A stretch of 33,885 bases of DNA from Bacteroidales bacterium (GTDB taxonomy: Bacteria > Bacteroidota > Bacteroidia > Bacteroidales > JAADJA01): the NCBI GenBank assembly GCA_016933115.1, contig JAFGBL010000170.1, forward strand, positions 1-33,885, written 5' to 3'. How positions within the stretch are numbered: the stretch's first letter is position 1; every line of letters begins with the position of its first letter. The notes below the pieces were generated by a model. It was not told where the DNA came from. It saw only the letters and a program-made list of their open reading frames with translations, and searched no databases. The position numbers and the translations under genes were made by a program. Of the stretch, positions 2,105 through 26,100 are shown in pieces.

Positions 2105-3691
2105 ATGAAACGATATCTACTTCATCTGTTGCTGGCAATCAACAGTTTGCTGCCCATCATATCATACCCACAAGCCTGGAATATTGGCAACACGTCAATC
2201 ACTTTTTCCGATCCTGACCGAAGCAACCGCTCTATACCAACTCAAATATTTTATCCGGCCAACACAGGCGGAACCAATGTGCCGGTGGCAGACGGCCAAT
2301 TCCAGGTGATCGTATTCGGACATGGATTTGTGATGGTCTATTCGGCTTACCAGTTTCTTTGGGAAACATTGGTGCCGCTGGGTTACATTGTCGCACTACC
2401 TACTACCGAAGGCAGCTTGTCGCCCGATCATCTGTCGCTGGGTTTGGATTTAAGGTTCCTGGTCAATAAACTGAAATCAGAAGGAGAAAATCCGTCATCA
2501 ATCTTTAATGGTCACATTGCTGATAGCGCTGCCATCATGGGGCATTCCATGGGAGGCGGAGCCGCTTTCCTGGCAGTCGAAAATTTTGACGGTGTCAGTG
2601 CAATGATCACGTTTGCCGCTGCAGAGACCAATCCATCGGCCATACAGGCGGCACAGAATATTTCGGTGCCCACGCTGGTTTTTTCAGGAAGCAATGATTG
2701 CGTTACGCCGCCACCCGACCACCAGATACCGATGTATAACAACCTGGCAAGCCCCTGCAAAACTTTCATCTCCATTACCGGTGGCGGACATTGTTATTTT
2801 GCCGATTACAATTTCAACTGCGCATTCGGGGAAGCCTTCTGCAGCCCCTCTCCCAGCATTTCAAGGGATCAGCAACATAATATCATTCTAAGTCATCTGA
2901 TCCACTACCTGGATTTCCAACTCAAAGGCGATCAGCTATCCTGGATCACTTTCAATAACCTGCTGAACAACCCTTCGGGGATCACATCCAACCAGGAGTG
3001 CAACATCAACTTACTGGATCTAAAGGTTTTCCTGGAAGGCCCATTCAACGGAACCGGAATGAATACCGATTTAACCAATAATCCTGAGCTTGTCGAAGGA
3101 TTCCCGATCAACCAACCCTATCATTCTGCGCCCTGGAACTATCCTGGAACTGAATCAATTACAGCCAAACCAACCGGGCTGGTCGACTGGGTATTGATAG
3201 AGCTACGCGATGCACCGGATGCTGCTTCGGCAAATAGTTCAACCATTGTACAAAGAAAGGCAACCCTACTTTTTCAGGACGGAACGATTAAAGGAATTGA
3301 TCAGCAGCCTTACCTGCTCATTGATGCTGAAATCTCGAATAACCTGTTCGTGGTGATCCGCCACCGAAACCATTTGCCTGTTTTATCGGCTCAACCACTA
3401 ACCGGTGTTGATGGCCTTTTTTCATTTGATTTCACTTCCGAATTGGATAATATTTATGGTGGTGAAAATGCAATTACACAACTTTCCGGTGGTTACCTGG
3501 GTATGGTTGCCGGTGACCTGGACGCCAATGGTGAAATCAACCAGGACGACAAGGATTTTCTCTGGTCACAAAATGCCGGTTCAACCGGTTACTTACAAAG
3601 CGACACTAACCTGGACGGGCAGGCGGACAACCCCGACAAAAACGAATTTTGGCTCCTCAACAAAAACAAAACCCAGCAATTTCCTGAATAA
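2105..3691 (+). CDS. Secreted alpha/beta hydrolase with shared C-terminal module
   Basis: 528 aa. Residues 1-24 form a signal peptide (basic start, LLHLLLAINSLLPII core). Residues 25-290 are an alpha/beta hydrolase of the type loosely related to chlorophyllase, dienelactone and PAF-acetylhydrolase-like esterases. Visible features are the opening DPDRSNRSIPTQIFYPA, the oxyanion segment VFGHGF, the nucleophile elbow GHSMGG (Ser148), Asp198 in SGSNDC and His229 in GGGHCYF, a complete catalytic triad. Residues 305-528 are the shared module, ending QQFPE. The enzyme should cleave an ester outside the cell or at its surface; the substrate cannot be read from the sequence. Bacteroidota polyester hydrolases carry a similar GHSMGG elbow, but I do not assign that activity. 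Confidence 0.9.
   Translation: MKRYLLHLLLAINSLLPIISYPQAWNIGNTSITFSDPDRSNRSIPTQIFYPANTGGTNVPVADGQFQVIVFGHGFVMVYSAYQFLWETLVPLGYIVALPTTEGSLSPDHLSLGLDLRFLVNKLKSEGENPSSIFNGHIADSAAIMGHSMGGGAAFLAVENFDGVSAMITFAAAETNPSAIQAAQNISVPTLVFSGSNDCVTPPPDHQIPMYNNLASPCKTFISITGGGHCYFADYNFNCAFGEAFCSPSPSISRDQQHNIILSHLIHYLDFQLKGDQLSWITFNNLLNNPSGITSNQECNINLLDLKVFLEGPFNGTGMNTDLTNNPELVEGFPINQPYHSAPWNYPGTESITAKPTGLVDWVLIELRDAPDAASANSSTIVQRKATLLFQDGTIKGIDQQPYLLIDAEISNNLFVVIRHRNHLPVLSAQPLTGVDGLFSFDFTSELDNIYGGENAITQLSGGYLGMVAGDLDANGEINQDDKDFLWSQNAGSTGYLQSDTNLDGQADNPDKNEFWLLNKNKTQQFPE
3017..3691 (+). repeat. Shared C-terminal module, copy 2
   Basis: About 224 residues from DLKVFLEGPFNG to QQFPE. Its loops are DLDANGEINQDD and DTNLDGQADNPD. 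A small insertion (NNPELVEGF) lies between the MNTDLT segment and the QPY-PWNY segment. Confidence 0.87.
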
Positions 3692-7029: not shown

Positions 7030-7033
7030 AACT

Positions 7034-9329: not shown

Positions 9330-9364
9330 TTTATAAAGAATTATTCATTTAAAAAAATATGATT

Positions 9365-12300
9365 ATGAAAACAATTTACTTTAAAACAATGTTAACGGCA
9401 ATCCTGGCGATTGCTTTTACAGTTTCCTATGCCGACACCATGCACTCAACCGCCGCAGGAGGCGATTGGGACGATCCCGCTACATGGGAGGAAAATCTTG
9501 TACCCGGTTCAGATGATGATGTGGTGGTCACCGGCCCCGGGGCTGTGTTTGTTGAAGGATTGAACACGTCAACTCACGATGCCTGTAACAATATCACGAT
9601 CATGGCGGGTGCAGTGTTGAGGCATAAAACAAACAGCATACGGGCGCTGGATGTATTTGGTACCATCAACAACTTTGGAGCAATCACAGATACCATCGTT
9701 TCCGGAGACCTTTACATTCACGCCTTTGGAAATATCATTAACAATGGCATCTGGAATAACAATCGGATCATCATGGAGGGAATGGTTACCCAGCTAATTT
9801 CATTGGGATCGGGCAAATATTTCGGTTGCGATGAATTTATTGATATCGATAACACCAGCAACCTTGAATTTCAATCCGATATTGAATTTCGGAATTGTGA
9901 TATAGACCTGAACAACGCCGGACTCATTATGCCGGTCACAAAAGGTGGTAAACTTAAAATACTGGGTGGAAGGATAACAGAAGCGGCCATAACCGGAAAC
10001 GATGGTTTCCTGGAAATGGCTGATCCGGCCTACCTCTATGAAAACGTATCCCTGAGCGATGTAACCTTGCAAGGCATAATTAATGTATTAGGTACAACAA
10101 ATATTTTGTCGGGCGAAATTATTGTGGAAGGCACTTTGCAAAACCGGATAAACGGCACATCTAGCCTTCAGATCAATGGCAATATACACAATGAAGGAAT
10201 CATTCAAAATACCAACAACAGTCTTACCCTGTATATCACCGGAAACATTTACAATAATGGCACATGGCAAAATTCCAATACCTGGCTTTCAGGAACCGGA
10301 ACACATAGCGTAACACAAGGAACTTCAGGAAGTTTTTCAGGGCAGAATTTCTACGCAGAAGCCGGTACCGGCACAATAACTGCAAATTCGGACATTGATT
10401 TTGACGGAGTAAATATCGACCTGAATAATTCTGTATTGATCATGCCGGTTACGAAAGGTGGTAAACTTACAATACTGGGTGGAAGGATAACAGAAGCAGC
10501 TATAACCGGAAACAATGGCTTTCTGGAAATGGGTGTTGAGGCATATCTCTATGAAAACGTATCCCTGAGTGATGTAACCCTGCAAGGTGTAGTCAATGTA
10601 TTGGGTGCTACAAATAGTTTGTCAGGTGAGATTATTGTGGAGGGTACTTTGCAAAACCGGATAAACGGCTCATCCAGCCTTCAGATCGATGGCAATGTAT
10701 ACAATGAAGGAATCATTCAAAATACCAACAACAGTTTTACCCTCAATGTCACCGGAAACATTTACAACAACGGCACATGGCAAAATACACATACCTGGCT
10801 TTCAGGAACCGGAACACATAGTGTAACACAAGGACCTTCAGGTAGTTTTTCAGGGCAAAACTTATATGCTGAGGCCGGTACCGGAACAATCACGGCAGGT
10901 TCATCCATCGATTTAAACGGTGTGAACATGGACCTGAATGGAGGTGTTTTAGAACTTGACCCGGCAAAAGGAGCAGGATTGAGTTTCACCAGTGGAAAAT
11001 TAAGGGATGGAATTGTTTACGGAAGCGGAAACGAACTTTCGATGGATACAGATTCCTATATTGAATCTTTAACCCTGCATGATTTTGTATTACAGGGAAC
11101 AGTGCCGGTTCTTACAACAGGAGTAATATTTGAGGGAAACACCATAGTTGAAGGGACATTGAAAAATTATTCCGCTTCAGCCAGTGTGATATGCAACGGT
11201 GTATTAACCAATAACGGCACCATTGAAAATCTAATAAATAGCCTGACCCTTTATCTGAACGGTACTTTCATCAATACCGGCACATGTACAAATTGGAAGA
11301 TCGAATTTAGCAGCGCCACAGACCAGGAAGTGGCCAGTCCCGGAGGAGGTGTAATTGGTGCCAGATACATTGAAAACACAGATCCGTTATCAAAAATCAT
11401 AGCAACAGATGACCTTACTTTCCATACATCAATAATCGACCTGAATGGCGGAGAAATTCAAATGCCATTGGGCAAAAAATTCACACTTACAGGTTCTTCA
11501 ACACTGGAGGGCAGTTTGGTTGATGGGACTATTTCAGGAGAGACTTTCGACTATGAGGGGAATGAATATGCTTATATACAGAACATTACATTTGATCCGG
11601 AGGTTACGCTATATGGTCAGGTTGAGGTACTCACCGAGGTTGACTTCAACGGTTCGCTTAATAATAAAGACATCCTGCAATTACGCGGATTAAGCTGTGC
11701 AGTGAATGTAGCCGACAGGATCATCAATAACGGGACAATTCAGGATGGAAGTACGGGTAACAACCTCACCATCAATTGCCAGGGACACATTATCAATAAT
11801 GGTATTTGGGACAACTACCGGACTACGCTTAATGGCGTTGATGATCAGCTCATTTACCTGATAGCCGGAAAAGAAATTACCGGTGAATTCCGGTTTGATG
11901 CGATGATCGATGACCCACCCTACCAATGGAAATGGAACGGAACCAATCTGAATTCTGCTGATTTTACCGGCGAAACATCTGATGTCCTTATCTGGGAGGT
12001 TCCCGTTTCCAACAATTATTACGGATATTTCGGATGCCAGGGTGCAGCGGATACCTCCAGGAATATAATAATCAGAAGCGGGATCATTATCGATCCGGTG
12101 GTTCTGCTTCAGGGGCCATATAATGGAGTTGATATGGACACTGATCTTGCCCAACAATGGCTGATCCCACTTTCTCAGCCGTTCAATATGCCACCGTGGA
12201 ATTACAACGGAGACGAAACAGTTTCTTCCATCCCAACCAATATCGTTGATTGGGTTTTGGTTGAACTCCGCGAAACCGCCGGAGGGCCGGAAACAGCCGA

Positions 12301-12763
12301 TGAAAATACCATAGTTATGCAACGTGCCCTTTTGCTCCGACACGATGGCCGTGTGGTTGATCCGTGGAATCAAACACCAGAGCTCAAATACGACATTGAT
12401 CTCACTGAAAACATATACATGGTTATTTGGCACAGGAATCATTTGGGGGTGATATCGGCTACCTCCCTTTCAAATGAAGATTCACCGGCTTATTACGATT
12501 TTTCAGAATCGGCAGACAAAGCTTATGGCGGAAGTGAAGCGTTGATTGATTTGGGCAATGGCGTTTATGGCATGATGGGTGGCGATGCCGACTACAACCA
12601 GCAGATCACCCAGGAGGATAAGCAGGGTTTCTGGGATCCGAATGCCGGAATGCCCTGCGGATATGTACCCTATGACTTTAACTTCGACGGTCAGATCGAC
12701 AACCGGGATAAAAATCAGACGTGGGTGAAAACACTGGGGAAATCAACGCAAGTAACGGAATAG
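9365..12763 (+). CDS. Large secreted repeat protein with shared C-terminal module
   Basis: 1132 aa from ATG 9365 (MKTIYFK). An ATG two codons upstream at 9359 is possible, but the later one gives the usual MK signal-peptide start, with cleavage after Ala23. The mature N-terminus has the GGDWDDPATWEENLVPG segment seen at the start of many Bacteroidota surface beta-solenoids. Residues 40-850 are a solenoid of short strands with recurring 'NNGTWQN' and 'GTLQNRING' turns, including a near-identical 171-residue tandem duplication (181-351 and 352-522). Around residue 855 the solenoid closes with QWKWNG and TSDVLIWEVPV. Residues 910-1132 are the shared module, ending STQVTE. No catalytic motif is visible; an adhesive or structural surface fibre is the likeliest role. 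The paralogue starting at 19539 has the same body but a different end. Confidence 0.9.
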   Translation: MKTIYFKTMLTAILAIAFTVSYADTMHSTAAGGDWDDPATWEENLVPGSDDDVVVTGPGAVFVEGLNTSTHDACNNITIMAGAVLRHKTNSIRALDVFGTINNFGAITDTIVSGDLYIHAFGNIINNGIWNNNRIIMEGMVTQLISLGSGKYFGCDEFIDIDNTSNLEFQSDIEFRNCDIDLNNAGLIMPVTKGGKLKILGGRITEAAITGNDGFLEMADPAYLYENVSLSDVTLQGIINVLGTTNILSGEIIVEGTLQNRINGTSSLQINGNIHNEGIIQNTNNSLTLYITGNIYNNGTWQNSNTWLSGTGTHSVTQGTSGSFSGQNFYAEAGTGTITANSDIDFDGVNIDLNNSVLIMPVTKGGKLTILGGRITEAAITGNNGFLEMGVEAYLYENVSLSDVTLQGVVNVLGATNSLSGEIIVEGTLQNRINGSSSLQIDGNVYNEGIIQNTNNSFTLNVTGNIYNNGTWQNTHTWLSGTGTHSVTQGPSGSFSGQNLYAEAGTGTITAGSSIDLNGVNMDLNGGVLELDPAKGAGLSFTSGKLRDGIVYGSGNELSMDTDSYIESLTLHDFVLQGTVPVLTTGVIFEGNTIVEGTLKNYSASASVICNGVLTNNGTIENLINSLTLYLNGTFINTGTCTNWKIEFSSATDQEVASPGGGVIGARYIENTDPLSKIIATDDLTFHTSIIDLNGGEIQMPLGKKFTLTGSSTLEGSLVDGTISGETFDYEGNEYAYIQNITFDPEVTLYGQVEVLTEVDFNGSLNNKDILQLRGLSCAVNVADRIINNGTIQDGSTGNNLTINCQGHIINNGIWDNYRTTLNGVDDQLIYLIAGKEITGEFRFDAMIDDPPYQWKWNGTNLNSADFTGETSDVLIWEVPVSNNYYGYFGCQGAADTSRNIIIRSGIIIDPVVLLQGPYNGVDMDTDLAQQWLIPLSQPFNMPPWNYNGDETVSSIPTNIVDWVLVELRETAGGPETADENTIVMQRALLLRHDGRVVDPWNQTPELKYDIDLTENIYMVIWHRNHLGVISATSLSNEDSPAYYDFSESADKAYGGSEALIDLGNGVYGMMGGDADYNQQITQEDKQGFWDPNAGMPCGYVPYDFNFDGQIDNRDKNQTWVKTLGKSTQVTE
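9905..10930 (+). repeat. 513-bp tandem duplication inside the solenoid
   Basis: Copies at 9905-10417 and 10418-10930 abut exactly and keep the reading frame (171 codons each). Runs such as ACTGGGTGGAAGGATAACAG and TATGAAAACGTATCCCTGAG are identical in both. Differences are scattered, with clusters of several adjacent changes. The similarity at base level is much higher than between other repeats in this protein, so the duplication is recent or kept alike by gene conversion. Confidence 0.85.
12092..12763 (+). repeat. Shared C-terminal module, copy 3
   Basis: About 223 residues from DPVVLLQGPYNG to STQVTE. It is the most divergent opening (VVLLQG for LKVFLEG) and has a degenerate first loop (DADYNQQITQED), but a good second loop (DFNFDGQIDNRD). 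Confidence 0.85.
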
Positions 12764-12780
12764 GAGTTTTGGGTTTTGTG

Positions 12781-12840
12781 TTCAAAGTTTTGTGTTCTGA
12801 GTTAATCCAGAACTCTGAACCCGGAACCCGGAACTTTGAA
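12781..12840. repeat. Imperfect inverted repeat of GTTC/GAAC words
   Basis: TTCAAAGTT (12781-12789) pairs with AACTTTGAA (12832-12840). Inside it, GTTCTG pairs roughly with CAGAAC, and CCGGAA occurs twice in tandem. It starts 17 bp after a stop codon. It resembles small intergenic repeats, but only one copy is in the window, so the class is uncertain. Confidence 0.4.
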
Positions 12841-12880
12841 TTTAAATGAAATATTTCATGGTTAAAACTGTCTGTTCCCA

Positions 12881-12967
12881 TTAAATCAAGAAAGGAGGCA
12901 AACCGAGCTACCATTTATCCGTAGAATAGTCGGTTCTTCATGAACATCTTCGTAAATATATCCAAAA
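12881..12967 (+). ncRNA. Conserved intergenic element, copy 1 (candidate structured RNA)
   Basis: Block A (12881-12898) is TTAAATCAAGAAAGGAGG. Block B (12945-12967) is CATCTTCG followed by a TATATCCAAAA tail. Both recur in copy 2 at 31806-31913. The region between can fold: AACCGA (12901-12906) with TCGGTT (12930-12935), and CTAC with GTAG inside. The element runs directly towards the terminator at 12985. AAGAAAGGAGG is a near-perfect anti-Shine-Dalgarno complement, yet no good start codon follows at the right distance. The function is unknown; it could be an independent small RNA or a conserved 3' untranslated element. Confidence 0.5.
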
Positions 12968-12984
12968 ATAAGGAAAGATTCCTT

Positions 12985-13023
12985 TTAAGCCGGTGGAAGC
13001 ATTTTCGCCGGCTTAATTTTTTT
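12985..13023 (+). terminator. Intrinsic terminator
   Basis: TTAAGCCGG (12985-12993) pairs with CCGGCTTAA (13008-13016). The stem can extend through G-T and A-T pairs to a four-base loop near GCAT. Seven Ts follow (13017-13023). It ends transcription from the upstream repeat-protein gene and the conserved element. Confidence 0.8.
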
Positions 13024-13039
13024 GAATTTCCTCTTTTGT

Positions 13040-13047
13040 TATATTTG
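13040..13047 (+). promoter_or_regulatory. -7 promoter box of the GH57 gene
   Basis: TATATTTG is an exact TAnnTTTG match, placed just after the terminator and 19 bp before the start codon. The -33 region is only a T-run. Confidence 0.5.
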
Positions 13048-13066
13048 TCCGGTTAAATTTTTTCAA

Positions 13067-16000
13067 ATGTTAAGAATCTGCCTCGCCTCTTTAATACTTA
13101 TTCTAAGTTTTCAAGAAGTCCAATCCCAGGTCCACACCACCTACCTCTGGCACCTGCAACAACCCATTTACTGGCCCGAGCAAAGTCAGTGGAATCCCTA
13201 CCATTACCAAACGGTATGGGAATCGCAATATCATAAAGACCACAACGGCAACTGGTATCCCGACGGATTGCAACATCCGCTTAATGATCTTCAGGAAATT
13301 TTCAACAAAGATGACCGTAAAGCGGTCTATCAATGGCGAACCAAAGACGCCGTTCAGAGTCTGCTTGGCTTTCCTGAAGCCGGGGCGCAGGTCAATTACT
13401 CTGGATGTTTAATTGAAAATGTGAACAGTTTGGCCAATGCTAGTCAATGGGGCTATTCAAACGGTTGGGAAAACAATTACATCACCGCCCGCAACTGGCA
13501 AACTTCAGGCGGTAATCCACGCATGGATGTAGTAGGGTTTACATTTCATCATGCGCTTTCTCCGCTTTTGAGCGAACGGGTTCTCAGAAAAGAGATACAG
13601 GCACACCGGCATATATATAACCAGACTTTCGGAACCAATCCCGACTATTCAAAAGGCTACTGGCCTGCCGAATGTTCCTTTAGTGTGCGTATCCTTAAAG
13701 TGTTGGTGGAAGAAGGATTTGAGTGGTCGGTGATTGCCAACAGCCACCTCGCCAGAACACTGGCGGATTATCCGTTAAATTTCGGCACATCAGGTTGCAA
13801 CATTGATCCGCCCAATGGAGCGGATATTACTTCATTCGCAGGCACCAACTGGTGGAGCGGTCAGATCGACGGCCGGGGCGGATCATTTGCTGCACCGTTT
13901 TGCTACCAGGCACATAAAGCCAAATATGTTGATCCGGAAACAGGTTTTGAATACATAATTACCGTGGTTCCAATGGCCGATCTGCTGAGCTATCAGAATG
14001 GCTATGCCCTGATGGGAACAGGCGACATCGATGCCCATATCGCTCCATATAACGATCCATCACATCCTTCTATCGTATTAATGGCCCATGACGGTGATAA
14101 CGCATGGGGAGGAGGATACGACTATTACAACAATTCAGTACCCGGATTTGCCTCTGCAGCCGCTTCTCAGGGTTATGTTCCGACCACCATCCAGCAATTT
14201 CTGGATGACCACCCGGTTTCTGAAAATGATATTGTTCATGTGGAGGACGGTTCCTGGTTCAATGCCGAGAATGACTGGGGACATCCGCAATTCATCAACT
14301 GGCTCTGGCCCATTTATACGCAAAATTATGAGTTTGATCCCAACGGCTGGACAGAAGATGCCCGAAACTGGGCCGTGCTGGTAGCGGCAGAGAACCGGGT
14401 TTGTATGGCCGAAGACCTGAGTGGAGGAAGTGACATCGGTGATATTGTCTTTCCCAATGCTTCTTCGACCCTTGCCGAACGGGCATGGCATCACCTGTTG
14501 CCCGGCTACACCAGCGGTTATATGTATTACGGAACCTCACTGGATATGGAGGTGAAACAAACCCTGGCAGCCAACCTGGCCTGCGATCTCGCTGACCAGG
14601 TGATCGCTGATAATCCGGGAACGGATCATACGCCTCCAACGGTATTTATTCCTCAACGTTATCCATACAATCCCGGAGGAACCGGTTTCGGGCCGACTTA
14701 CGGTTATCAACAACATCCAAACAGTTCCGATTTTACCGTCTGGACCTTTGCCTATGATGTTTCAGGTTTACAAACAATCGTTTTAAAATACAGGTTGGAC
14801 AACGATGGAATCAACCCGCTCACCGATAATGAAAACGACACATACGCAGGAGGCCCGGGCGTTCAAAACTGGAATTCAATATCCATGACCGAACGAATAT
14901 TTCCGACAGGAAATGTTACCGGCAATCCCGACATCAACTTCTTTATACTGCCCGATTATATTGCCAATGAATATTACGCGGAGATCACCGGGCTTTCCGA
15001 TACTTTGGTGGATTATTACATTGAAGCTACCGATACCTATGGTAATGTTTTCAGAACTCCTATTCAGCATGTTTATGTTGGAAATTATAATCCCGGAGGA
15101 TCCGGTTCGTACTCAGTTTCCTGGGAACCGGAAGAACCGGAGATTGAAGATATGATTACCCTTACGGTGGCCAATCCGAACTCAGTTCCACGATTGCACT
15201 GGGGTGTAAATTATAGTGGCAGCAACTGGCAAACACCGGATAATGCGTATTGGCCTGATGGAACCTATTTATTCAATGGTTCCGGTCCTGCAGCTGAAAC
15301 ACCTTTTAATGGTCCGGATGCAGAAAATAATTATACCCTGGAGATCGGGCCGTTCAATGATCCGGCTCAAACAGTAAATTCCATTGCATTTGTTATCCAC
15401 TTCGAAAATGATACCTGGGACAACAATAATGGCAGCGATTACCACATCGATTTTGGCGGGCAGGGAATTGTAGGTGTTCAGTGGGAACCGCAAAACCCGA
15501 CCCAATTCGACTCAGTCCGGATTTATGTAGGACAGGCAAACATCGGAGCCAAACTGCACTGGGGGGTAAAACTCAATGGGTCCAATTGGCAAACACCGCA
15601 TATTGTCTATTGGCCAACAGGCTCCTATCTGTTCAATGGCAGCGGACCTGCCATCGAATCAGCATTTGACGGACCGGATTCCGAAAATATCCTTAGCCTT
15701 GTTATTGGGCCTTTTGATGATCCGATACAGGAGCCTGAAGGGATCAACTTTGTGATCCATTACGACAACAACACCTGGGACAACAACAATGGCAACGATT
15801 ATTTCATTCCCATTATTTATATTTCACCCATTGAACTCGACGTAAAAGTTTTTCTTGAAGGCCCATTCAATGGAACCACCATGAACACCGATTTAACCAA
15901 TTCAACCAATTCAACCAATTTCCCAACCATACAACCTTACAATATATCTCCCTGGAATTACAACGAAACCGAATCAATCACCGAGATCCCAGCCGGTACA

Positions 16001-16510
16001 GTTGATTGGATTTTAATTGAACTCCGCGATGCTTCAGGTGCTCCGTCAGCTATATCTTCAACGATGATCGCAAGGAAAGCCGCATTTCTGATGAGTGATG
16101 GCCATATCCGGTCCCTGGATGGCGCCACCAATCAGCAATTTATCGATTTAACAATTCAACAATCCCTCTTTGTGGTCATCCACCACAGAAATCACCTGTC
16201 CATCATGTCGGCCAATCCATTGACAGGAACCGAAGATGTTTATTCTTACGATTTCACAATAGCAGAAGATCAGGCCTACAACTCAGGACAAAAGAACCTG
16301 GGAAATGGTTATTACGGAATGTATGCTGCAGATGGAGATGCGGATGGCATCATCGACAATGATGACCATTACCCTGTTTGGACTAATGATGCCGGTAATT
16401 GGGGATATTTACCCGGCGATTATAATCTCGATAGCCAGGTTGACAATGAGGATAAAAATAATTTTTGGTTTCCGAATAAGGGGGCAGGAAGTCATATACC
16501 TGAATTGTAA
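13067..16510 (+). CDS. Secreted GH57-like glycosidase with two starch-binding-like modules and shared C-terminal module
   Basis: 1147 aa from ATG 13067. An in-frame TTG lies at 13022, but it would start upstream of the -7 box. The signal peptide is residues 1-20 (LRICLASLILILSF). Residues 22-540 match glycoside hydrolase family 57, which acts on alpha-glucans: the opening WHLQQPIYWP (His29), the nucleophile segment GYWPAECSF (Glu202), and MAHDGDNAWGGG with Asp342/Asp344 as acid-base candidates. Residues 683-923 are two tandem modules with LHWGVN-GSNWQTP and WDNNNG-DY, typical of CBM25/53-like starch-binding domains. Residues 925-1147 are the shared module, ending SHIPEL. The protein probably degrades or remodels starch or glycogen at the cell surface. 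Secretion is unusual for GH57. The exact specificity (amylase, glucanotransferase or branching enzyme) is not decided. Confidence 0.9.
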   Translation: MLRICLASLILILSFQEVQSQVHTTYLWHLQQPIYWPEQSQWNPYHYQTVWESQYHKDHNGNWYPDGLQHPLNDLQEIFNKDDRKAVYQWRTKDAVQSLLGFPEAGAQVNYSGCLIENVNSLANASQWGYSNGWENNYITARNWQTSGGNPRMDVVGFTFHHALSPLLSERVLRKEIQAHRHIYNQTFGTNPDYSKGYWPAECSFSVRILKVLVEEGFEWSVIANSHLARTLADYPLNFGTSGCNIDPPNGADITSFAGTNWWSGQIDGRGGSFAAPFCYQAHKAKYVDPETGFEYIITVVPMADLLSYQNGYALMGTGDIDAHIAPYNDPSHPSIVLMAHDGDNAWGGGYDYYNNSVPGFASAAASQGYVPTTIQQFLDDHPVSENDIVHVEDGSWFNAENDWGHPQFINWLWPIYTQNYEFDPNGWTEDARNWAVLVAAENRVCMAEDLSGGSDIGDIVFPNASSTLAERAWHHLLPGYTSGYMYYGTSLDMEVKQTLAANLACDLADQVIADNPGTDHTPPTVFIPQRYPYNPGGTGFGPTYGYQQHPNSSDFTVWTFAYDVSGLQTIVLKYRLDNDGINPLTDNENDTYAGGPGVQNWNSISMTERIFPTGNVTGNPDINFFILPDYIANEYYAEITGLSDTLVDYYIEATDTYGNVFRTPIQHVYVGNYNPGGSGSYSVSWEPEEPEIEDMITLTVANPNSVPRLHWGVNYSGSNWQTPDNAYWPDGTYLFNGSGPAAETPFNGPDAENNYTLEIGPFNDPAQTVNSIAFVIHFENDTWDNNNGSDYHIDFGGQGIVGVQWEPQNPTQFDSVRIYVGQANIGAKLHWGVKLNGSNWQTPHIVYWPTGSYLFNGSGPAIESAFDGPDSENILSLVIGPFDDPIQEPEGINFVIHYDNNTWDNNNGNDYFIPIIYISPIELDVKVFLEGPFNGTTMNTDLTNSTNSTNFPTIQPYNISPWNYNETESITEIPAGTVDWILIELRDASGAPSAISSTMIARKAAFLMSDGHIRSLDGATNQQFIDLTIQQSLFVVIHHRNHLSIMSANPLTGTEDVYSYDFTIAEDQAYNSGQKNLGNGYYGMYAADGDADGIIDNDDHYPVWTNDAGNWGYLPGDYNLDSQVDNEDKNNFWFPNKGAGSHIPEL
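15115..15834 (+). repeat. 360-bp tandem repeat encoding two starch-binding-like modules
   Basis: GCACTGGGG recurs at a period of exactly 360 bp (15197 and 15557). Each unit of 120 codons carries VSWEP or VQWEP, LHWGV, SNWQTP, YLFNGSGPA, IGPF-DP and WDNNNG. The paired tryptophans and the DNN turn are those expected for starch-binding modules. Confidence 0.8.
15839..16510 (+). repeat. Shared C-terminal module, copy 4
   Basis: About 223 residues from DVKVFLEGPFNG. It is the only copy with a residue after the terminal Pro-Glu (HIPEL). The short triplet run NSTNSTN after MNTDLT looks like local slippage. Its loops are DGDADGIIDNDD and DYNLDSQVDNED. Confidence 0.87.
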
Positions 16511-16519
16511 ATTAATTTC

Positions 16520-16527
16520 TAAATTTG
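16520..16527 (+). promoter_or_regulatory. -7 promoter box of the TPR kinase operon
   Basis: TAAATTTG is an exact TAnnTTTG match, starting 9 bp after the GH57 stop codon and ending 15 bp before ATG 16543. The mRNA leader would be very short. No clear -33 box is visible. Confidence 0.45.
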
Positions 16528-16542
16528 CTTACAATCTAATCC

Positions 16543-18660
16543 ATGAACAAGAGGGGAAAATACTGTATCGGGTTTGCCATGCTGACAGCTATCCTGATTT
16601 CTTATCCTTCCTTTTCACTATGTTCACAATCAAAATCCGACAGTTTAAAAGCCTTATTAAACCAGGCCGATCACGATACAATAAGGATCAGGATGCTATT
16701 TGAAATGGGTAATTTATATATTGATGGGCCTTCAGATTCTTTGGTTTTTTATTATAAGGAGGCATTAAACCTGATCGATAAATTCTTTGCACAACCCGAG
16801 GATTTTATTGCCAAAAAAGGGTCAAAGACCATCGAACGATACAAAAGGTTAAATTTTCGTGCATTACTCGAAATCGGCATTGAAAAATTTTTCCAGGGGA
16901 AATACAATGAGTCATTGGAAAATTACTTTAAAGCCCTCAAAATCGCACAGGATATCAACGATATAGGCCTGGTTTCGGAGGTGAATGGTGCCATCGGAAT
17001 CGTTTATAAAAATCAGGGAGAATACGCACAAGCGCTCGAATTTTATGAGCAGGCTTTATCTGCAGCAATTGAACTCAATGACACATCCTGGATTGCAGCC
17101 TGTTATGCCAATGCCGGCAACGTGTACCGAAGGTTGACGAATTACAGTAAGGCACTGGACTATTTTCTAAAAGCCCTGGAAGTTTTTGAAAAAGAAGGAG
17201 AGTCCCGACGGATGGCCATCAGTTATATGAACATCGGTAATTTGTATGAGGATCAGAAGGATTACAATACGGCCCTTGAATATTACAGCAGGGCCCTTCA
17301 ATTGTCCTATCAAACAGATGATAAAAAAAGGATCGCGGAATGCCTGGCCAACATTGGGAATATTTATTCGGCACAAAAAGCCTTTAATACGGCAAGGGAT
17401 TTCTACCGGCAATCGCTTGAAATCAATATAGAGCTGGGATATGAGCATACGGTAGACGATTGCTATAAATATATCGGAAGTACTTACGAACTGGAAGGAT
17501 TGACAGATACTGCCCTGGTAAATTACCGGAAAGCATATGAAATAGCCCTGAAGGAAAATGACAAGCTGATTCTGGCCGAAGTTTTGGGAAGTATTGCCAA
17601 TATTTTCCTGATGAAAAAATCTTACAGGGAAGCGATGGAAAATGCAGATAAAAGTTTGCAAATCGGGCTTGAAACGGGCGATCCGCAGAACATCAAGAAC
17701 GCCTATTTGTACCTGTCAGAAGCCTGGCAGGGTTTGAACAATCCAATCAAAGCCCTAGAATACTTTAAATTATACTCAAACATTAAAGATACCATTTTCA
17801 GTTCTGATAAATACAAGGCCATCAAAGACCTTGAAATGAAATACGAAACCGAAAAAAAAGAACAAAAACTGGCCCTGCTTACCGAAAAAAATCAGGTTCA
17901 GGTACTCAAACTTAGCAGAAGGTACCGGCTGCTGTGGGGTATCGGAATTCTTGCAGTCCTCATCATGTTGATCATTTACCTGCTGTTCAGGCAAAAGGAG
18001 TTGAGGTCAAAACACATGGCCGTGGAACTGGAACAAAAACTGCTAAGGTCGCAAATGAACCCGCATTTCATTTTCAATTCACTCATCGCGATACAAAGTT
18101 TTATTTATAAAAAGGACCCGGTACAGGCCGGAGATTACCTGGCCAAATTCGCCGAACTGATCAGGATCACGCTTGAAAACTCAAGAAGTGAGTTCGTTTT
18201 ACTCGAGAGAGAAATTAAAATGCTTGAAATATACCTGGAGCTTCAATGCCTGCGGTTCGATAATAAATTCAACTATCAACTCGAAATAGATGAGAATATC
18301 GACGCTTCAACCATGCGTATACCGCCCATGCTGGCCCAGCCATTCATTGAAAATGCAATCGAACACGGCCTCAGGTATAAAGACACCAAAGGAAATATTA
18401 AAATCAATTATATGAAAAGTAACGGAATCCTTCGGTTGATCGTAGAAGATGATGGCATTGGAAGGGAAAAGGCAGCAGCCAATTCCAGAAATAAAAAACA
18501 TGCATCCATGGCCACTTCTATAACAATAGAAAGGCTGGAGGTGCTGAGTAAAAGATTTAAACAAAAACTAAAACTTGAACTGACCGATTTGAAAAATGAA
18601 GAGGGAATGCCTTGTGGAACACAAGTTAAATTTTCGATGCCCTATAAAATTTCGGTTTGA
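16543..18660 (+). CDS. TPR-containing sensor histidine kinase (LytS/YehU type)
   Basis: 705 aa. A signal/anchor segment at residues 10-28 leads into tetratricopeptide repeats at about 105-430, with repeated YxxALEYYxxAL and NIGNIY patterns. A coiled stretch rich in E and K (about 425-455) precedes one membrane helix (about 462-483, GILAVLIMLIIYLLF). The kinase region has NPHFIFNSL with phospho-acceptor His508, then PFIENAIEHGL and DDGIGRE. The TPR part is predicted outside the inner membrane, so the signal is probably a protein or peptide contact rather than a sugar bound to a propeller. The response regulator starts 31 bp downstream. The ATG at 16543 gives a clean MNKRGK signal start. Confidence 0.93.
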   Translation: MNKRGKYCIGFAMLTAILISYPSFSLCSQSKSDSLKALLNQADHDTIRIRMLFEMGNLYIDGPSDSLVFYYKEALNLIDKFFAQPEDFIAKKGSKTIERYKRLNFRALLEIGIEKFFQGKYNESLENYFKALKIAQDINDIGLVSEVNGAIGIVYKNQGEYAQALEFYEQALSAAIELNDTSWIAACYANAGNVYRRLTNYSKALDYFLKALEVFEKEGESRRMAISYMNIGNLYEDQKDYNTALEYYSRALQLSYQTDDKKRIAECLANIGNIYSAQKAFNTARDFYRQSLEINIELGYEHTVDDCYKYIGSTYELEGLTDTALVNYRKAYEIALKENDKLILAEVLGSIANIFLMKKSYREAMENADKSLQIGLETGDPQNIKNAYLYLSEAWQGLNNPIKALEYFKLYSNIKDTIFSSDKYKAIKDLEMKYETEKKEQKLALLTEKNQVQVLKLSRRYRLLWGIGILAVLIMLIIYLLFRQKELRSKHMAVELEQKLLRSQMNPHFIFNSLIAIQSFIYKKDPVQAGDYLAKFAELIRITLENSRSEFVLLEREIKMLEIYLELQCLRFDNKFNYQLEIDENIDASTMRIPPMLAQPFIENAIEHGLRYKDTKGNIKINYMKSNGILRLIVEDDGIGREKAAANSRNKKHASMATSITIERLEVLSKRFKQKLKLELTDLKNEEGMPCGTQVKFSMPYKISV

Positions 18661-18691
18661 TAACAATTATAAATAAACTAAAAGATTGTTT

Positions 18692-19429
18692 ATGATTTCT
18701 GTTGTAATCATTGATGACGAACAAAAGGCCAGGGAAACCATTCAAAATATCCTAGGTCTCAGTGAATGTGAAATTCAGATCATTGGCGAGGCCGATTCGG
18801 TAGAGAGCGGTTACGAGCTTATTTCCAATAAACGACCCGACCTGGTATTGCTCGACATCAACCTCACCGACGGAACAGGATTTGATTTGATCAAAAGGTT
18901 CGACAGGATCACATATCATGTTATATTCATTACCGCTTATGAAGAATATGCGTTGAAAGCCTTTAAATTCAGCGCTATTGACTACATTTTGAAGCCCATA
19001 ACTGCAGCGGACCTGCTTCAGGCTGTTGAAAAAGCCTGTTCGACTATTCACAAGGAAGAAAATGACGTAAAGTTGTCCACCCTTCTTTCCAACCTGGAAA
19101 AGATAAAAAAAATTGTTTTGAAAACTGCGGAAAGTATCCACATCGTGCAGGTAAAAAACATCATCCGATGTGAAGCCGACGTGAATTATACCACCTTTTT
19201 CCTCGAAAACGGCGATAAACTCCTGGTTTCAAAAACCCTCAAGGATTTTGCAGAATTATTGGAACCGGCAGGATTTTTCAGGACACATCAATCTCACCTT
19301 GTTAATCTTGATCATATACTTCGGTACGATAAAACCGAAGGCGGACATTTGGTAATGGGCGATGAGTCAATTGTGCCTGTATCTTCCAGAAAAAAAGATG
19401 AGATGTTCAAGCTTTTCGAAAAAATGTAA
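18692..19429 (+). CDS. LytTR-family response regulator
   Basis: 245 aa from ATG 18692, the first codon that gives the normal receiver start ISVVIIDDE; an in-frame TTG two codons earlier is less likely. The receiver holds Asp8-Asp9, phospho-acceptor Asp55 (LVLLDINLTDG) and Lys-Pro in DYILKP. The LytTR domain covers about 140-245 (IIRCEADVNYTTFFL, FFRTHQSHLVNLDHI). It pairs with the TPR kinase. The direct repeats at 19448-19480 lie just after its stop and upstream of the 19539 gene, which makes that gene the first candidate target. Confidence 0.95.
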   Translation: MISVVIIDDEQKARETIQNILGLSECEIQIIGEADSVESGYELISNKRPDLVLLDINLTDGTGFDLIKRFDRITYHVIFITAYEEYALKAFKFSAIDYILKPITAADLLQAVEKACSTIHKEENDVKLSTLLSNLEKIKKIVLKTAESIHIVQVKNIIRCEADVNYTTFFLENGDKLLVSKTLKDFAELLEPAGFFRTHQSHLVNLDHILRYDKTEGGHLVMGDESIVPVSSRKKDEMFKLFEKM

Positions 19430-19447
19430 AAAATAAATTTTCTAGAT

Positions 19448-19480
19448 CGAATAATCATTCAACCCCAGCGAATAATAATT
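19448..19480 (+). promoter_or_regulatory. Candidate LytTR binding site, 21-bp-spaced direct repeats (site 1)
   Basis: CGAATAATCATT (19448-19459) and CGAATAATAATT (19469-19480) start exactly 21 bp apart, two helical turns, and differ at one base. The second copy begins 38 bp before a likely -7 box. LytTR regulators such as AgrA are known to bind two 9-bp direct repeats about 21 bp apart. No TTTG-like -33 box is present, as expected for an activator-dependent promoter. Confidence 0.6.
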
Positions 19481-19506
19481 TTCCACTTATACAGCAGTTT
19501 CCACGC

Positions 19507-19514
19507 TATATTTT
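19507..19514 (+). promoter_or_regulatory. -7-like box of the 19539 gene
   Basis: TATATTTT differs from TAnnTTTG only at the last base and lies 24 bp before the start codon. It is positioned for activation from the direct repeats upstream. Confidence 0.4.
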
Positions 19515-19538
19515 TACCGAAAACAAAACTTCATCAAT

Positions 19539-21554
19539 ATGAAAACTTCGGCAATCAAAATCCTATCTGCAATCTCGATTATTTGTATTGTTAATATCAT
19601 GCAAGCTTCAACCATCACTTCAACCTTAAATGGCGGCCCCTGGAATGAAGCCACCACATGGATTGAGGGAGTTGTTCCCGGATCTAATGATACGGCCATT
19701 ATTCAGGGCCTCGTGATCATCGGGAGTGTTGTTGTTTATGAAATTTACCACAGTTACGGAGGCTGGGTCATTGTTGAGCAATCCGGAAGTTTGGTCCCAC
19801 ATGAATATGGCGGAGGGTTGGGAACCTTTAATTTATTTGTTGCCCACGACATTACAAATAATGGAATCATATACAACGGGGAAGAATATCTGCATCTCTT
19901 AATTGAAGGGAATATAATGAATAACGGTATATGGCAACCACACGAAACATTTCTTACAGGAACGGCTAACCAAAATATCAGCCTGGGTGAGGATGCAGTT
20001 TTCGGAGGTTATTGGACCATAAATAATCCAGTTTCAATCACGGCTTTGTCAGATATCAGGTATAATGGGGGTTATTCGCATGGTACAAACTACTACATCG
20101 GCGATTTCAATATGAATGGAGTGACATTCCATTTGGGTACATTTTCGATCAATATAGCAGGAACCGTAATTTTTAATGGTACCATTGAAGGTGATTTTGA
20201 GATCCTCGGCACATTTAATGTCGATAAGGATTTGAGTGATACCTTGGTATTTCATGGAACAGTGCATGTTACCGACACCTTGCAGAACACCCTTTATGGC
20301 CAGGGATATGGAATCATGAAGCTGGTAGTCGAAGGGGACATTGTAAATAATGGTGTTGTCCGTGATCACCCTTTGGATGACGATCTCAGCATTCTGATAA
20401 CAGGGAAAATCGTCAACAACGGGAAATGGTCCTGCAATCATGTGAGTTTCACAGGATCAGAAAATCAATATATAGAACAAACTACCGGAAAATATTTCGA
20501 AAGCAATTTTTACGACCTGGATGCCGCGAGTGAAATAATTGCAAATTCAAATATCACTGTAACTCAAGAGATACAAATGAACGGTTCTGTTTTGGATATG
20601 CAGGAACATACACTGAATCTCACATCCTGGATAAAAAATGGGGTTCTGAAAAATGCCAACCTGCATGGAGGATATCTTCTTTCGGTGAATGCAGCCGACT
20701 TTCTCAACCTCTTTGGAATGGTAACAGTTGACGATTATAATGTTTTTCAGTGTCCGGTAATTGTTTACGATACTCTAAGGTGCAATACCTATGGAGGAGG
20801 ATCCTATTATTACGAGTTACAGATTGATGGTTCTTTAACCAATAACGGCTGCATCCAAAGCTATGGATCAGGTATGCTGCGTATGCATATTACCGGAGAT
20901 ATATTAAATAACGGCTCCTGGGCAAATTACACCACTTATCTGGAAGGAGATATGGACCAGTTTATCGGGCAGTCTGAAAACAAAGTTTTCGAAGGTAGCT
21001 TTGAAATTCAAAAAACCGCGGGGAACGTTATTGCCAATTCCGATCTTAGGTTCCTGGGAAATATCAACCTGAACGGGTCGACTTTAAAAATGGGAGGACG
21101 TACCATCTTTATGGATAATTTTCTATACAACGGCACATTGGAACAGGCCTATTTACATGGTGGTTTACTTCAATCCATAACTGCAACCGGCAAATTAGAT
21201 ATTAAAGGCACGGTAAAATTGGACGATTTTAATATTTTTAATTGTCCGGTTACGGTATTTGACACGTTACAAAGCAACACTTTTGGCGGAGGATCGAAAT
21301 ACTACGACGTCACCATTAACAATTCTGTAACTAACTATGGGGTAATTCAGAGCTGGGGATCTGGAATTCTACGATTATATATCACCGGCGACTTAAGCAA
21401 CTCAGGTCAATGGGTCAATTACCTGACCTACTTAAATGGAACTGAAGACCAACATATTTATCTTTTTGAAGATATTACCATCGATGGAAATGTACAGTTT
21501 GATGCCATAAAAACACTGCTCCATTCCAATGGTACCATGAAGGTTTATTGCTAG
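19539..21554 (+). pseudogene. Secreted solenoid repeat protein, N-terminal part of a frameshifted gene
   Basis: 671 codons from ATG 19539 to a premature stop at 21552-21554. Signal peptide: residues 1-22 (ILSAISIICIVNIMQAS). The mature start GGPWNEATTWIEGVVPGSNDT matches the start of the 9365 protein. A beta-solenoid with repeating 'NNGxW' turns follows. Two long repeats of about 160 residues (each with LHGG and GGGS-YY) occupy roughly 360-660. Just before the stop the frame goes wrong: FDAI is followed by KTLLHS here, whereas one extra base gives NTAPFQWYHEG, which aligns with DDPPYQWKWNG of the 9365 protein. The rest of the protein continues in the frame of the next entry. Restored, it would be 967 residues. 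It may be a true pseudogene, a sequencing error or, less likely, a recoded gene. Confidence 0.8.
21509..21513 (+). other. Frameshift site in a run of five A
   Basis: The upstream frame reads GCC ATA AAA ACA; adding one A to the run gives GCC ATA AAA AAC ACT and joins the downstream frame. The downstream frame has a stop at 21500-21502, so the shift must lie between about 21503 and 21551, and the A-run is the natural place. Confidence 0.75.
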
Positions 21555-22441
21555 ACTCACCCGATTTTAATGGAGAAACAGCACAGGTCCTATCCTGGAA
21601 TGTTCCTGTTCAACCGGCCTGGTACGGAACTTTCTTTTGCGAAACCGGCGAGGGCAATTCAAGAAATATAATTGTTGGCCGTGGGATGTACTCACCAATA
21701 AATCTAACTGCAGTAGTAAACTGTACCGATGTAGAACTGTCATGGCAAATGCCTAACGGCTCACCCAATAGCTGGAACATTTACAGGAATAATGAGCTAC
21801 TTGAGAATGTCAATTCCATGTCTTACACCGATGAAATGTTAAATCCGGGTGAGGATTACAGCTACTACATTACAGCCGTTTTTGGTTTGGAGGAGTCTGA
21901 GCCGACTGCTACAGTTACAATTTACCTGGAGATACCAGCCAATACCATCCCCGGAAATTTCACTGCCGATCCCAACGAAACCGTAGTTATTTGCACCTGG
22001 GACGAGCCCGCATGTTGCCTTACTCCTGATGGCTACAACATCTATCGCGACGGTGAAAAACTCAATTCCATAATGATCCTCGAAACCACCTATACCGATT
22101 CGCCAGGTTATGGAGATTTCTCTTATCAAGTTAATGCAGTGTATTATTTTGGTGAGTCCGGCCATTCTGAAACCTCAACGGTACATATTTCAGGAATTGA
22201 AGAAAACACATTGAAATATATCAGCCTGTATCCTAATCCAGCGAAGGAAAAAATAAATATTACCTCCGATATCGAACTTTACAACCTATATATTTTCAAC
22301 AGTGAAGGGCGGCAGATTATGAACCAAAATTATGTAACTGAAAACTATTCGATAGATGTTTCTGCTCTAAACTCAGGGTTATACCTATTGATTCTGAATA
22401 CCGAAAAGGGTAAATTAAAATCCAGGTTTATTGTAAAATAA
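21548..22441 (+). pseudogene. Fibronectin-like and type A CTD part of the frameshifted secreted protein
   Basis: 297 codons counted from a TTG at 21548, but the frame is open from 21503 and homology starts at about 21512, so this is the downstream half of the 19539 gene rather than a separate gene. FNGETAQVLSWNVPV is the end of the solenoid body. Two fibronectin type III-like domains follow (about 21690-21930 and 21940-22190; each has a SWNIYRN or GYNIYRD core). The last 75 residues or so are a canonical T9SS type A CTD: YISLYPNPAKEKINI, then GLYLLILNTEKGK and the terminal IVK. If translated in frame, it would direct export across the outer membrane by T9SS and attachment to the surface. Confidence 0.8.
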
Positions 22442-22587: not shown

Positions 22588-23103
22588 ATGGAACGCATCA
22601 TAATCATCGATGACCATTTATGTAAAGAAGAACTGGCCGAATTCCTCGAAGCCAACAAAAAACACATCAAACTCGATTCTTCATTCGAACAGTTAAAATC
22701 CTCTACAAAAATATTTTTCGAAGAGTTATTGGAGATCAAAAACGGAGATGAAAAAATTATTTTTAACTCAGATCAAAATATCAATTTTGTCAGAACCAAA
22801 GAAATCGTTAGCGTAAATGCATTCGGCCGTTATTGCAAAATCATCCTAAAAAACGGCAGCATCCTTGAAACCAACCAGGACCTCGACTCAATAGAAAAAA
22901 AACTGCCCAGGGATTTTTTTATGCGCATTCATGCATTGCACCTGATCAACCTCGACTACCTGGCAAGTTGCAAATTGAACATTCCCCCTTCAATAATCAT
23001 GAACAATGGAGAGATTTTACCTCTGGATGAAAACAAAAAAGCAGAAGTCATTAAATACCTGGAAAATTTAACAAAAAATTCAAATAATTCAATGATTTAT
23101 TAA
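22588..23103 (+). CDS. Receiver-less LytTR DNA-binding protein
   Basis: 171 aa. Residues 1-10 (ERIIIIDDH) look like the first strand and acidic pair of a receiver domain. The rest of the receiver, including the phospho-acceptor Asp and the Lys-Pro, is absent, replaced by a short helical segment (11-55). Residues 65-165 form a complete LytTR domain (EIVSVNAFGRYCKIIL, FFMRIHALHLINLDYL). It therefore cannot be phosphorylated like the other two regulators and may act constitutively, through protein level, or as a competitor at the same sites. The direct repeats in its promoter suggest control by itself or by the 18692 regulator. The giant secreted protein gene follows after 33 bp. Confidence 0.88.
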   Translation: MERIIIIDDHLCKEELAEFLEANKKHIKLDSSFEQLKSSTKIFFEELLEIKNGDEKIIFNSDQNINFVRTKEIVSVNAFGRYCKIILKNGSILETNQDLDSIEKKLPRDFFMRIHALHLINLDYLASCKLNIPPSIIMNNGEILPLDENKKAEVIKYLENLTKNSNNSMIY

Positions 23104-23136: not shown

Positions 23137-26100
23137 ATGAAAGACATCTTACAAGTAAGAGTAAACAGAAGAGTTAAAAACATTTTGTTTACGGTATTTA
23201 CTATTGTGTTTTGGATCAACTGTTTTGATGCAAATGCCCAGGTATCCTTTACACAAACGCTAAACGCCGATTTTTACAAAGGCGCTTACAACGATTTAAT
23301 CGTATATGGCGACAATGTTTACCTACCTTACCAGGCTACCGATGTGGGAACCTGGTTAACAACAACTGTATTACCCCAAACGTTGATGGGACAAAAAGCT
23401 GCCACCTGGAACAACCGATACGTTTACGTGGTTGGCGGTTATAACGACTTAACTTATTCTACTGCTGTATACCGGGCCACGCTCAACACATCGGGGATAA
23501 GCAGTTGGACTACACTGAATCCCTTGCCCGTCGGACTACGTGACCATGCCGTGGTGATCGGCACCAACACCGTTTATGTGTTGGGTGGTCGAGATGATTC
23601 TGACATTTATGATGAAATTTACTATGCCACCATCAACACAGACGGCTCTATCGGGGCATGGCAGGCATCTTCTGTTTCGCTTCCGGTTGCATTGTGGGGG
23701 CATACTGCCGTTTATTGCAACGGTTATGTTTATGTGGCTGGAGGTGCTAATACACTTTCCCCCACAGCGGCAAGAAATAACGTTTATTACGCAAAAGTAC
23801 TCGCCGACAATTCACTTTCTGCATTTACAGCAACTACTAATCTGCCGGCAACCAGAAACGGGCATTCTATGGTGAATCATGCCGGGAAGGTTTACGTATT
23901 GGGAGGTTTTGTCAATACAACCGGCGTGAAACAAAACACGGTTTACTCTGCTACATCGAATGTTTCAGGAAGCCTTTCATCCTGGTCGACCCTGACGGCC
24001 CTTCCGATAGCAGTGAGCAACCATTCATCTGTCATTATTAATGGATTAATCACCTTACTGGGTGGCGAAAGCGGTGGCACATTGAGCAATAGTGTCTATT
24101 ACGCCGACGTTAATGCGGCTCCGCTGGTTTGGAACCTGGCCTCCAATGTAATGTACGATCGAACTAAAGACGGTGCTGCATTTACCCGAGACGGCTGGAT
24201 AGGATTTTGCGGTGGAGAAAACCTTTCAGGAACGCCCATCTGGAATACAAGGTATGCCAATCTTACATTATCTTCCAACTATGAGAAGAATGGGCTTTTT
24301 ATTTCCAATCCATTTTATGAGTTGGGAGCTGAACGGGAAATCACGGAACTTACCTTTATAACAGGTAATCCGGCCGTTTCCAATTCCCAAATAGCCTACC
24401 GGACGGCCGGTGATGACCTGATCTGGGGTAACTGGACAACGCCCACTTCCACCAGCCCGATCTCCGTTGGCTTCACAGATCACTACCTGCAATATAAGGT
24501 AATTTTTACCGGAGACGGACTGGTTACTCCAACTTTCTCAGAGATGAACCTTTGGACACCCGGCACCGAACTATCAGGCAACCTGAATGCTTTAACCAGC
24601 ATAACACTGGCCAACAGTCCTTATTGGGTTACCGGCGATGTGTCGTTTACTTCAGGGACGCATACTTTCGAAGCCGGAGTGGTTTGGAATTTCCTTCCTG
24701 AAACAGGCCTGACGGTCGGACAGGCAAATGTTGTCTGCAACGGCACCTCAGGAAATCCTGTTCAGTTTATCGGTTATACCAATGACGACGGATTATGGGA
24801 TGGGTTCTATTTTGATCCAAACAGCGATAACGGGGTATCATCGCAGTTTAATTATGTGGTTATTGCCAATGGCGGATTTGGAAGTAATAATGCCAACCTT
24901 TACTGCAACTCATCCAATGAGCCGTTCCTCAATCATTGCACTATCCGAAATGCCGATGGAAATGGGATTCGTTTGAATAATGCCCAGATCAATGTTGAAT
25001 TTTCAACAATTGAAGATAACAGCGAAAACGGTGTTTATCTCGAAAATTCCAATCCGACTTTTGTAAGTTGTGATATAAATAATAATGCAGCAGCCGGGGT
25101 CCATTTTACTTCCAATACCTCAGAACCTACTTATAGTAACACCATCATTCAAAACAATCTGTATGGCCTTCACTATCCTTCACCCAATTATACGATTTAT
25201 CCTCCCAACGGTGATCCTACTTTAACCAATAATACTTATAACGGAATTGCCATTGATGGTGGAGACGTAACCAGCAGTAACAAAGTTTGGAATTCCATAA
25301 TTTATGACTATATATTATTGGGTACTGTGAGAATTGTCCAATATTCATCTTATGTACGTCTTACCATCGAACCGGGAAATACCATAAAGGCGTTAGAAGG
25401 AGTTCAGATACAGATTGGAATGGGTAGCAACGGCGGTGAATTATATGCAATTGGAACAGCTGACAGCCTGATTACTTTTACATCTCATGATGGCCTTTCA
25501 GGTGGATGGGATGGAATTTGGTTTACACAATACGCAAGTGGCTGGGGCGGCGTTTCGGTGATGGATTATTGCGTAGTTGAAAAAGGCAATGATTATAATA
25601 TGTACTCTCTGTCCACGGTCCAGCCTACCATGAATCACTCCATCATAAGGGATGCACTGGTCGACGGATTGAGGAATGCATCATCAACGCATATCATTCA
25701 AAACACGCAGTTTCTAAATAATGGAAGATATCCCTATTACTTGCTTGATCCGGGAGCAAATCCCACCCATTCGGGAAATACATATACCGGCAACGGCATT
25801 AACAGGATCGCTGTTGAAGGTGGCGAGTATGGTAGTGACCGGTCATTAACCTTTGATAATATCCCATATCTCGTCCTGAATGATATAATTATAGTGCTAT
25901 ATAGTAATCATAGCCGCTTAACCGTCGATCCGGGCGTCATTGTTGAATTTGCTGCCGGAACTCAATTAAGATTAGGTAAAAGCTCTAATGGTGGTGATCT
26001 TTGGGCCGAAGGAACATCAGGCAATCCGATTACTTTCAGGCCATATAATGGTGTTGCCGGAGGATGGGAAGGTATTTATTTTACACAATATAATGATAAT

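Follow-up and report, generated by a model that had tools for sequence, protein, structure and literature searches.

Introduction

Organisms with a type IX secretion system (T9SS) are thought to retain surface proteins by means of the proteins' own C-terminal domain (CTD). Here we describe two paralogous genes, A and B, on the 33,885-nucleotide contig JAFGBL010000170.1 (assembly GCA_016933115.1) of a Bacteroidales bacterium of the lineage JAADJA01; their products share a body and differ in their ends, B having a type A CTD and A a module of about 225-227 amino acids (aa), which we term X-dockerin-like from its predicted fold. Throughout, "the window" means this whole stretch; A, B, the other module-bearing genes of the window and the candidate anchor described below all lie on its forward (+) strand.

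CTDs of types A, B and C have been described for the T9SS (PMC10202324; PMC12618676), and the solved type A CTDs have a seven-strand immunoglobulin (Ig)-like fold (PMC10202324). For Ca. Stygibacter (Cloacimonadota), a cellulosome-like system has been proposed, with a cohesin scaffold bearing a T9SS-type CTD and dockerin enzymes that include a GH57 protein (PMC8542988). Archaea, too, have cohesin and dockerin surface proteins that are not cellulosomal, such as the scaffoldin-like proteins of anaerobic methanotrophic archaea (ANME) (PMC9012536). In the open-access literature that we searched, neither the module nor a swap between it and type A CTDs is described, and we found nothing relevant on the module's HRNHL motif or on FISUMP domains in connection with the T9SS.

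Results

A and B share a body and part at one joint

Protein A (9359..12763; 1134 aa, with an MKT start at 9365) consists, in order, of a signal peptide, a G8-like start (GGxWxxxxTWxExxVPG), a beta-solenoid body, an Ig-like closing unit (11804..12082) and, at its extreme C-terminus, the X-dockerin-like module (12083..12760). As assembled, protein B contains a frameshift between about 21513 and 21520, shortly upstream of the joint: the first frame (19539..21554) encodes a signal peptide and the body as far as the shift, and reading then continues in another frame (21548-22441), with the remainder of the closing unit placed at 21521..21685 and the tail at 21686..22441. For the comparison of A with B, an X was placed at the frameshift and no base was restored.

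The first-pass annotation had called the 9365 and 19539 genes homologous, and they are: blastp aligns the bodies along their whole length (E = 3e-50, about 28% identity), and Smith-Waterman scores exceed those of shuffled sequences for both the bodies (z = 43) and the N-termini (z = 12). The most similar part is the final 95 aa upstream of the joint (z = 32). Because the tails score lower than the best shuffle (50 against 52; z = 3), we place the end of similarity after SRNIIIRSG in A (residue 908, base 12082) and SRNIIVGRG in B (base 21685); the BLAST alignment that runs on past this joint is gappy, low-identity noise. With the frameshift bridged, similarity between the two bodies therefore stops where it had been predicted to stop, at the module boundary after SRNII(I/V).

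The description of both proteins as solenoids stands for most of the body and has to be amended at its end. A model of A from a 16-row alignment (mean predicted local distance difference test score (pLDDT) 83, body about 90) is predicted to form a long beta-solenoid; the stretch that leads up to the joint, in contrast, is the closing unit, for which Ig domains are the best local matches to the predicted structure. A Foldseek search with the A body gave nothing beyond Ig matches to the closing unit and antigen-43-like solenoid matches that were not significant.

Downstream of the joint, B carries an fn3 domain (about 21695-21913; PF00041, 1.5e-7) and a second, fn3-like domain (about 22034-22183), which matches the RGI_lyase beta-sheet domain PF18370 (7.9e-12). 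The protein closes with a type A CTD (22226-22438) that scores 48.9 bits with TIGR04183 (4.7e-13; cut-off 23). This is the tail that had been read from the sequence, two fibronectin-like domains plus a type A CTD in place of A's module. Since the assembly is a draft metagenome-assembled genome (MAG) of 314 contigs and the frameshift lies about 170 bases upstream of the joint, a misassembly or the frameshift itself might have attached an unrelated tail to B and made the difference from A an artefact. We regard this as highly improbable, given that a relative in another genome (locus L139) is intact: a single reading frame of 816 aa there runs through the like closing unit and two fn3-like domains to a type A CTD. 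Its tail is 49% identical to that of B, and all three type A-ended proteins fall into a single clade (see below).

Either end follows the body in related genomes

Of 17 congeneric genomes, counting that of the window, 15 have the body; 43 other genera were sampled and none has it. A third full copy in the genome of the window (C150:22325-25012) is also module-ended. In congeneric genomes, orthologous bodies are joined at this position to either kind of end: about 30 of them, in the stretches fetched, run from the closing unit into the module with 0-2 residues between, whereas L139 has B's arrangement, and L140 passes straight from the closing unit into a type A-like CTD that is divergent and scores under the cut-off (17.8 bits).

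When 36 closing units are placed on a tree, those that precede a type A end, three in all, group together (97/93) inside a set of 18 rows whose other members are module-ended. A single swap accounts for the end labels on this tree. Its direction was most likely from module to type A, because module ends lie on every other side of the tree, which is unrooted.

The module is predicted to have an X-dockerin fold

An AlphaFold2 model of the module, built from a 78-row alignment, has a pLDDT of 96.2 and a predicted TM-score (pTM) of 0.92. When it was compared with 996 Protein Data Bank (PDB) chains, the top eight matches were all the X-module plus type II dockerin (XDoc) of clostridial scaffoldin complexes (Z 9.3-10.7, root-mean-square deviation 3.2-3.6 A over 144-150 aa), and the next entry had a Z of 4.9; the best Foldseek match was 2b59_B (E = 8e-4, probability 1.00). 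In the model, as in XDoc, an X-module beta fold stands directly before a dockerin fold. The dockerin-like part has two 12-residue calcium-type loops at dockerin spacing, whose acids at positions 1 and 12 are near invariant when counted over 78 diverse module members: D169 (72/78) and D180 (74/78) in the first loop (12584..12619 in A), D199 (78/78) and D210 (74/78) in the second (12674..12709).

Sequence comparison gives weaker matches. A profile of the module had 11 matches in the PDB, most of them dockerins that aligned with the dockerin-like part; the best had an E of 0.017. Dockerin_1 (PF00404) was the Pfam family touched by most members (10/78, best E 0.0015), and one archaeal module protein scored 26.9 bits with it. 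Pfam and NCBIfam scans of the module copies in the window gave no match over cut-off, and the module proteins had no match to TIGR04183 at its curated 23 bits. In its modelled fold the module thus resembles an X-dockerin, and by curated score it is not a member of PF00404.

Module copies number 41 in the genome and six in the window; the genome also has no fewer than 150 type A CTDs. In addition to that of A, the window's copies form the C-termini of a truncated open reading frame (1-1698; module 1024..1698), a PETase-like hydrolase (2105-3691; module 3005..3691), a GH57 protein (13022-16510; module 15827..16510), an endonuclease/exonuclease/phosphatase protein (32023-33681; module 33013..33681) and a scaffoldin-like protein described below. 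The module is therefore borne by several enzymes in the window (GH57, hydrolase and nuclease), as would be expected of a cellulosome-like system.

Among 174 full-length copies with closed ends, 130 stop exactly at the C-terminus, most of the others come within about 22 residues of it, and none is followed by a type A CTD. We nevertheless rejected strict exclusion between module and type A CTD as a rule: it holds in these 174 copies and is broken by three divergent homologues (L045, L047 and L172 (2-2467)), in which the module homologue is internal and a type A CTD comes after it. At eight loci (L148, L129, L095, L156, L169, L177, L202 and L041), a FISUMP (Fib_succ_major) or similar domain follows the module, and FISUMP may thus offer a further choice of C-terminus. 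Loci L041-L050 (genomes G039, G052, G086, G116, G188 and G196) have a divergent form of the module, with loops of the pattern NMNGxVKYSGxxND and often a QLP or similar end, which may represent a second subfamily of the X-dockerin-like unit.

Cohesins accompany the module

In a comparison of 198 genomes from the order, 23 of the 25 that have the module also have cohesins, against 34 of the 173 others (p = 1.5e-12). The association is retained when the genus of the window is left out (20/22), and genome size is no explanation for it (0 of 20000 size-stratified permutations).

The window itself encodes a several-cohesin scaffold of the kind that cellulosome-like systems have. This scaffoldin-like protein (28305..31781; PF00963, 1.3e-21) has four cohesins (28386-28760, 29100-29459, 29781-30149 and 30498-30758) and a C-terminal module (31104-31778), and its gene begins 11 bases downstream of one for a candidate anchor (23137..28293). 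The latter combines kelch, beta-helix and CarboxypepD_reg parts with a Dockerin_1 domain (about 27295-27438), a cohesin-like region (27577-27996) and, adjoining this region, a type A CTD (about 28042-28251). The cohesin-like region was missed by Pfam and is assigned from hhalign alone, which matched it to a cohesin profile with a probability of 90.9 (E = 1.2e-6; at most 5.4 in 20 shuffles).

The same gene order, a cohesin-type A CTD gene followed in tandem by a multi-cohesin gene, recurs across the order in many families. The downstream scaffold has 3-4 cohesins and then the module in L247, L249, L254, L255, L261 and L272 (and in L248 via a second frame); that of L251, L252 and L266 closes with a type A CTD, and others end differently. 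Because it ends in either the module or a type A CTD, the scaffold is a second, unrelated gene with the same exchange of ends. The first-pass annotation had proposed that the ends are interchangeable; this is supported, because both kinds of end are found repeatedly at the joint and the multi-cohesin scaffold varies in the like manner.

Cohesins occur together with type A CTDs on single proteins in C182 (11927-13885), L247, L254 and L266; C182, elsewhere in the genome of the window, encodes both cohesin-module and cohesin-type A CTD proteins. On another contig (C90), a lone secreted cohesin is encoded just upstream of a module-bearing nuclease.

Sensor-kinase and LytTR-type response-regulator genes, recognised by eye, lie at 3805-7786, 16543-19429 and 22588-23103 in the window, interleaved with the surface-protein genes; this arrangement suggests local regulation of the surface set.

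Attachment, adhesion or export

We consider it probable that the module is a calcium-dependent, non-covalent attachment plug that docks into surface cohesins. The calcium-loaded X-dockerin-like module, as a C-terminal plug, would enter cohesin sockets at the cell surface, and these sockets would be the cohesins of proteins held by T9SS type A CTDs and of module-bearing multi-cohesin scaffolds. Two modes of retention would then coexist, B being held through its own type A CTD and A indirectly and non-covalently through its module, the same body having acquired either end at one joint. What the sequences and models show is the homology, the joint, the single swap, the fold match, the conserved calcium loops, and the co-occurrence and gene pairing with cohesins; that module proteins bind calcium, dock into cohesins and lie at the surface is our inference. 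The earlier suggestion that the module works "in export or attachment" thus resolves towards attachment.

Several points weigh against docking. It does not account for the passage of module proteins through the outer membrane, and the fold match on which it draws starts from a predicted, not a solved, module structure. The copies in the window fall short of the curated Dockerin_1 cut-off of 22.9 bits, giving no match or 11.7 bits, and about nine of the 174 full copies continue into FISUMP-type (TIGR02145) or other domains. The co-occurrence with cohesins ignores kinship between genomes, and some of the cohesins counted share a polypeptide with the module. Lastly, one genome (G045) has 13 modules, and no cohesin was found in it at E 0.001.

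A genome with modules and no detected cohesin would also fit a calcium-stabilised cap or adhesive domain that has no cohesin partner and binds, for example, glycans or other cells, the ends having been shuffled without being equivalent; dockerin-like calcium folds without proven partners do exist. The strong co-occurrence with cohesins and the adjacent cohesin genes argue against such a domain, as do the exact replacement at one joint and the like exchange in an unrelated gene, and we consider it quite improbable.

The position of the module invites a different reading, as a new class of T9SS sorting domain: the translocon, or a shuttle dedicated to the task, would recognise it as a signal for export, and it would stand in for the type A CTD as its equivalent. 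The module occupies the joint of the type A CTD, stands at the extreme C-terminus in most copies and is found on proteins with no other CTD; moreover, each of the 25 module genomes in the order has SprA, that of the window among them. SprA is, however, also present in 162 of the 173 others, or 187 of 198 genomes in all (p = 0.22), and because nearly all other genomes have it too, we rejected its co-occurrence with the module as proof of T9SS dependence: it carries no information. The homologues that lie internally before a type A CTD, the copies with a FISUMP domain of about 200 aa behind them, and a modelled X-dockerin fold in place of the seven-strand Ig-like fold of solved type A CTDs (PMC10202324) all speak against a sorting class.

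A T9SS sorting domain would be expected only in T9SS organisms, and the module is not so confined. A Thermoplasmatota MAG (G213) encodes ten modules and two strong cohesin proteins, and a search for SprA in this MAG, which may be incomplete, gave no match. We rejected misbinning as the simplest reading of its modules, without dismissing it altogether, as archaeal genes lie on the same contigs: an archaeal type IV pilin domain (Pilin_N, PF07790, 2.9e-9) and a FlaI-like ATPase (2.4e-120) beside modules on C55, and archaeal-type isoprenoid-lipid enzymes on the module contig C49. Organisms without an outer membrane need no T9SS signal. The presence of the module in a SprA-negative archaeon, with no outer membrane to cross, argues that its basic job is not T9SS export, and we think a T9SS sorting class unlikely. 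Because module proteins carry no other CTD, it is possible that the module doubles as an export signal in Bacteroidales.

The module may have been transferred between archaea and Bacteroidales. On the two archaeal contigs (L211 and L228, from C49 and C55), one pair of modules is in tandem and one module stands before a C-terminal membrane-helix-like tail with RKRL. One of these archaeal module proteins (L211:895-3630) has a weak match to the PorU sortase (E = 8.5e-14, far below cut-off) and, judged by its sequence, is possibly a module-bearing C25-type peptidase.

Discussion

Our wider proposal is that the surface of these Bacteroidales carries an assembly in which cohesin sockets held by type A CTDs would receive dozens of module-bearing enzymes and solenoid adhesins, up to 41 per genome, the module having been exchanged with an archaeon and covalent attachment by a CTD and non-covalent docking being interchangeable ends in evolution. 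We advance this whole picture tentatively, with somewhat less than even confidence. If the attachment reading is true, many uncultured Bacteroidales would have a second, modular route of attachment, a large unnamed domain family would gain a function, and the dozens of secreted enzymes per genome that have no recognised CTD would be explained; cohesin-dockerin assembly would also reach beyond the degradation of cellulose. Docking of the module into cohesins is open to a direct binding test.

The closest described systems each resemble a part of this arrangement. Like the archaeal cohesin and dockerin proteins, the module proteins would be surface proteins without cellulolysis; the passages of that account that we read (PMC9012536) do not treat the module family. 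With Ca. Stygibacter the present system shares dockerin(-like) enzymes that include a GH57 protein, and cohesin proteins with a T9SS-type CTD. The dockerins of that system are, however, ordinary ones recognised by InterPro (PMC8542988), whereas the unit here is an unnamed X-dockerin-like module, and the pairing of a cohesin-CTD gene with a scaffold gene and the module-ended scaffolds are features of the system described here.

The module takes the same C-terminal place on bodies and scaffolds as the T9SS type A CTD (TIGR04183 / PF18962), from which it differs in having no sequence match to it, in its predicted X-dockerin fold, and in occurring also in an archaeon and before type A CTDs. Its nearest structural likeness is to the XDoc of clostridial CipA (2b59, 3kcp, 4fl4, 5g5d and 5m0y): in both, a beta X domain is followed by two calcium-loop helices, the site is C-terminal, and a multi-cohesin scaffold is among the bearers. 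The module is nevertheless only 13-20% identical to clostridial XDoc and longer (about 227 versus about 156 aa), and it is found on about 40 different proteins per genome, whereas XDoc is mainly on the scaffold; its host, moreover, is a Gram-negative member of the Bacteroidales with a T9SS.

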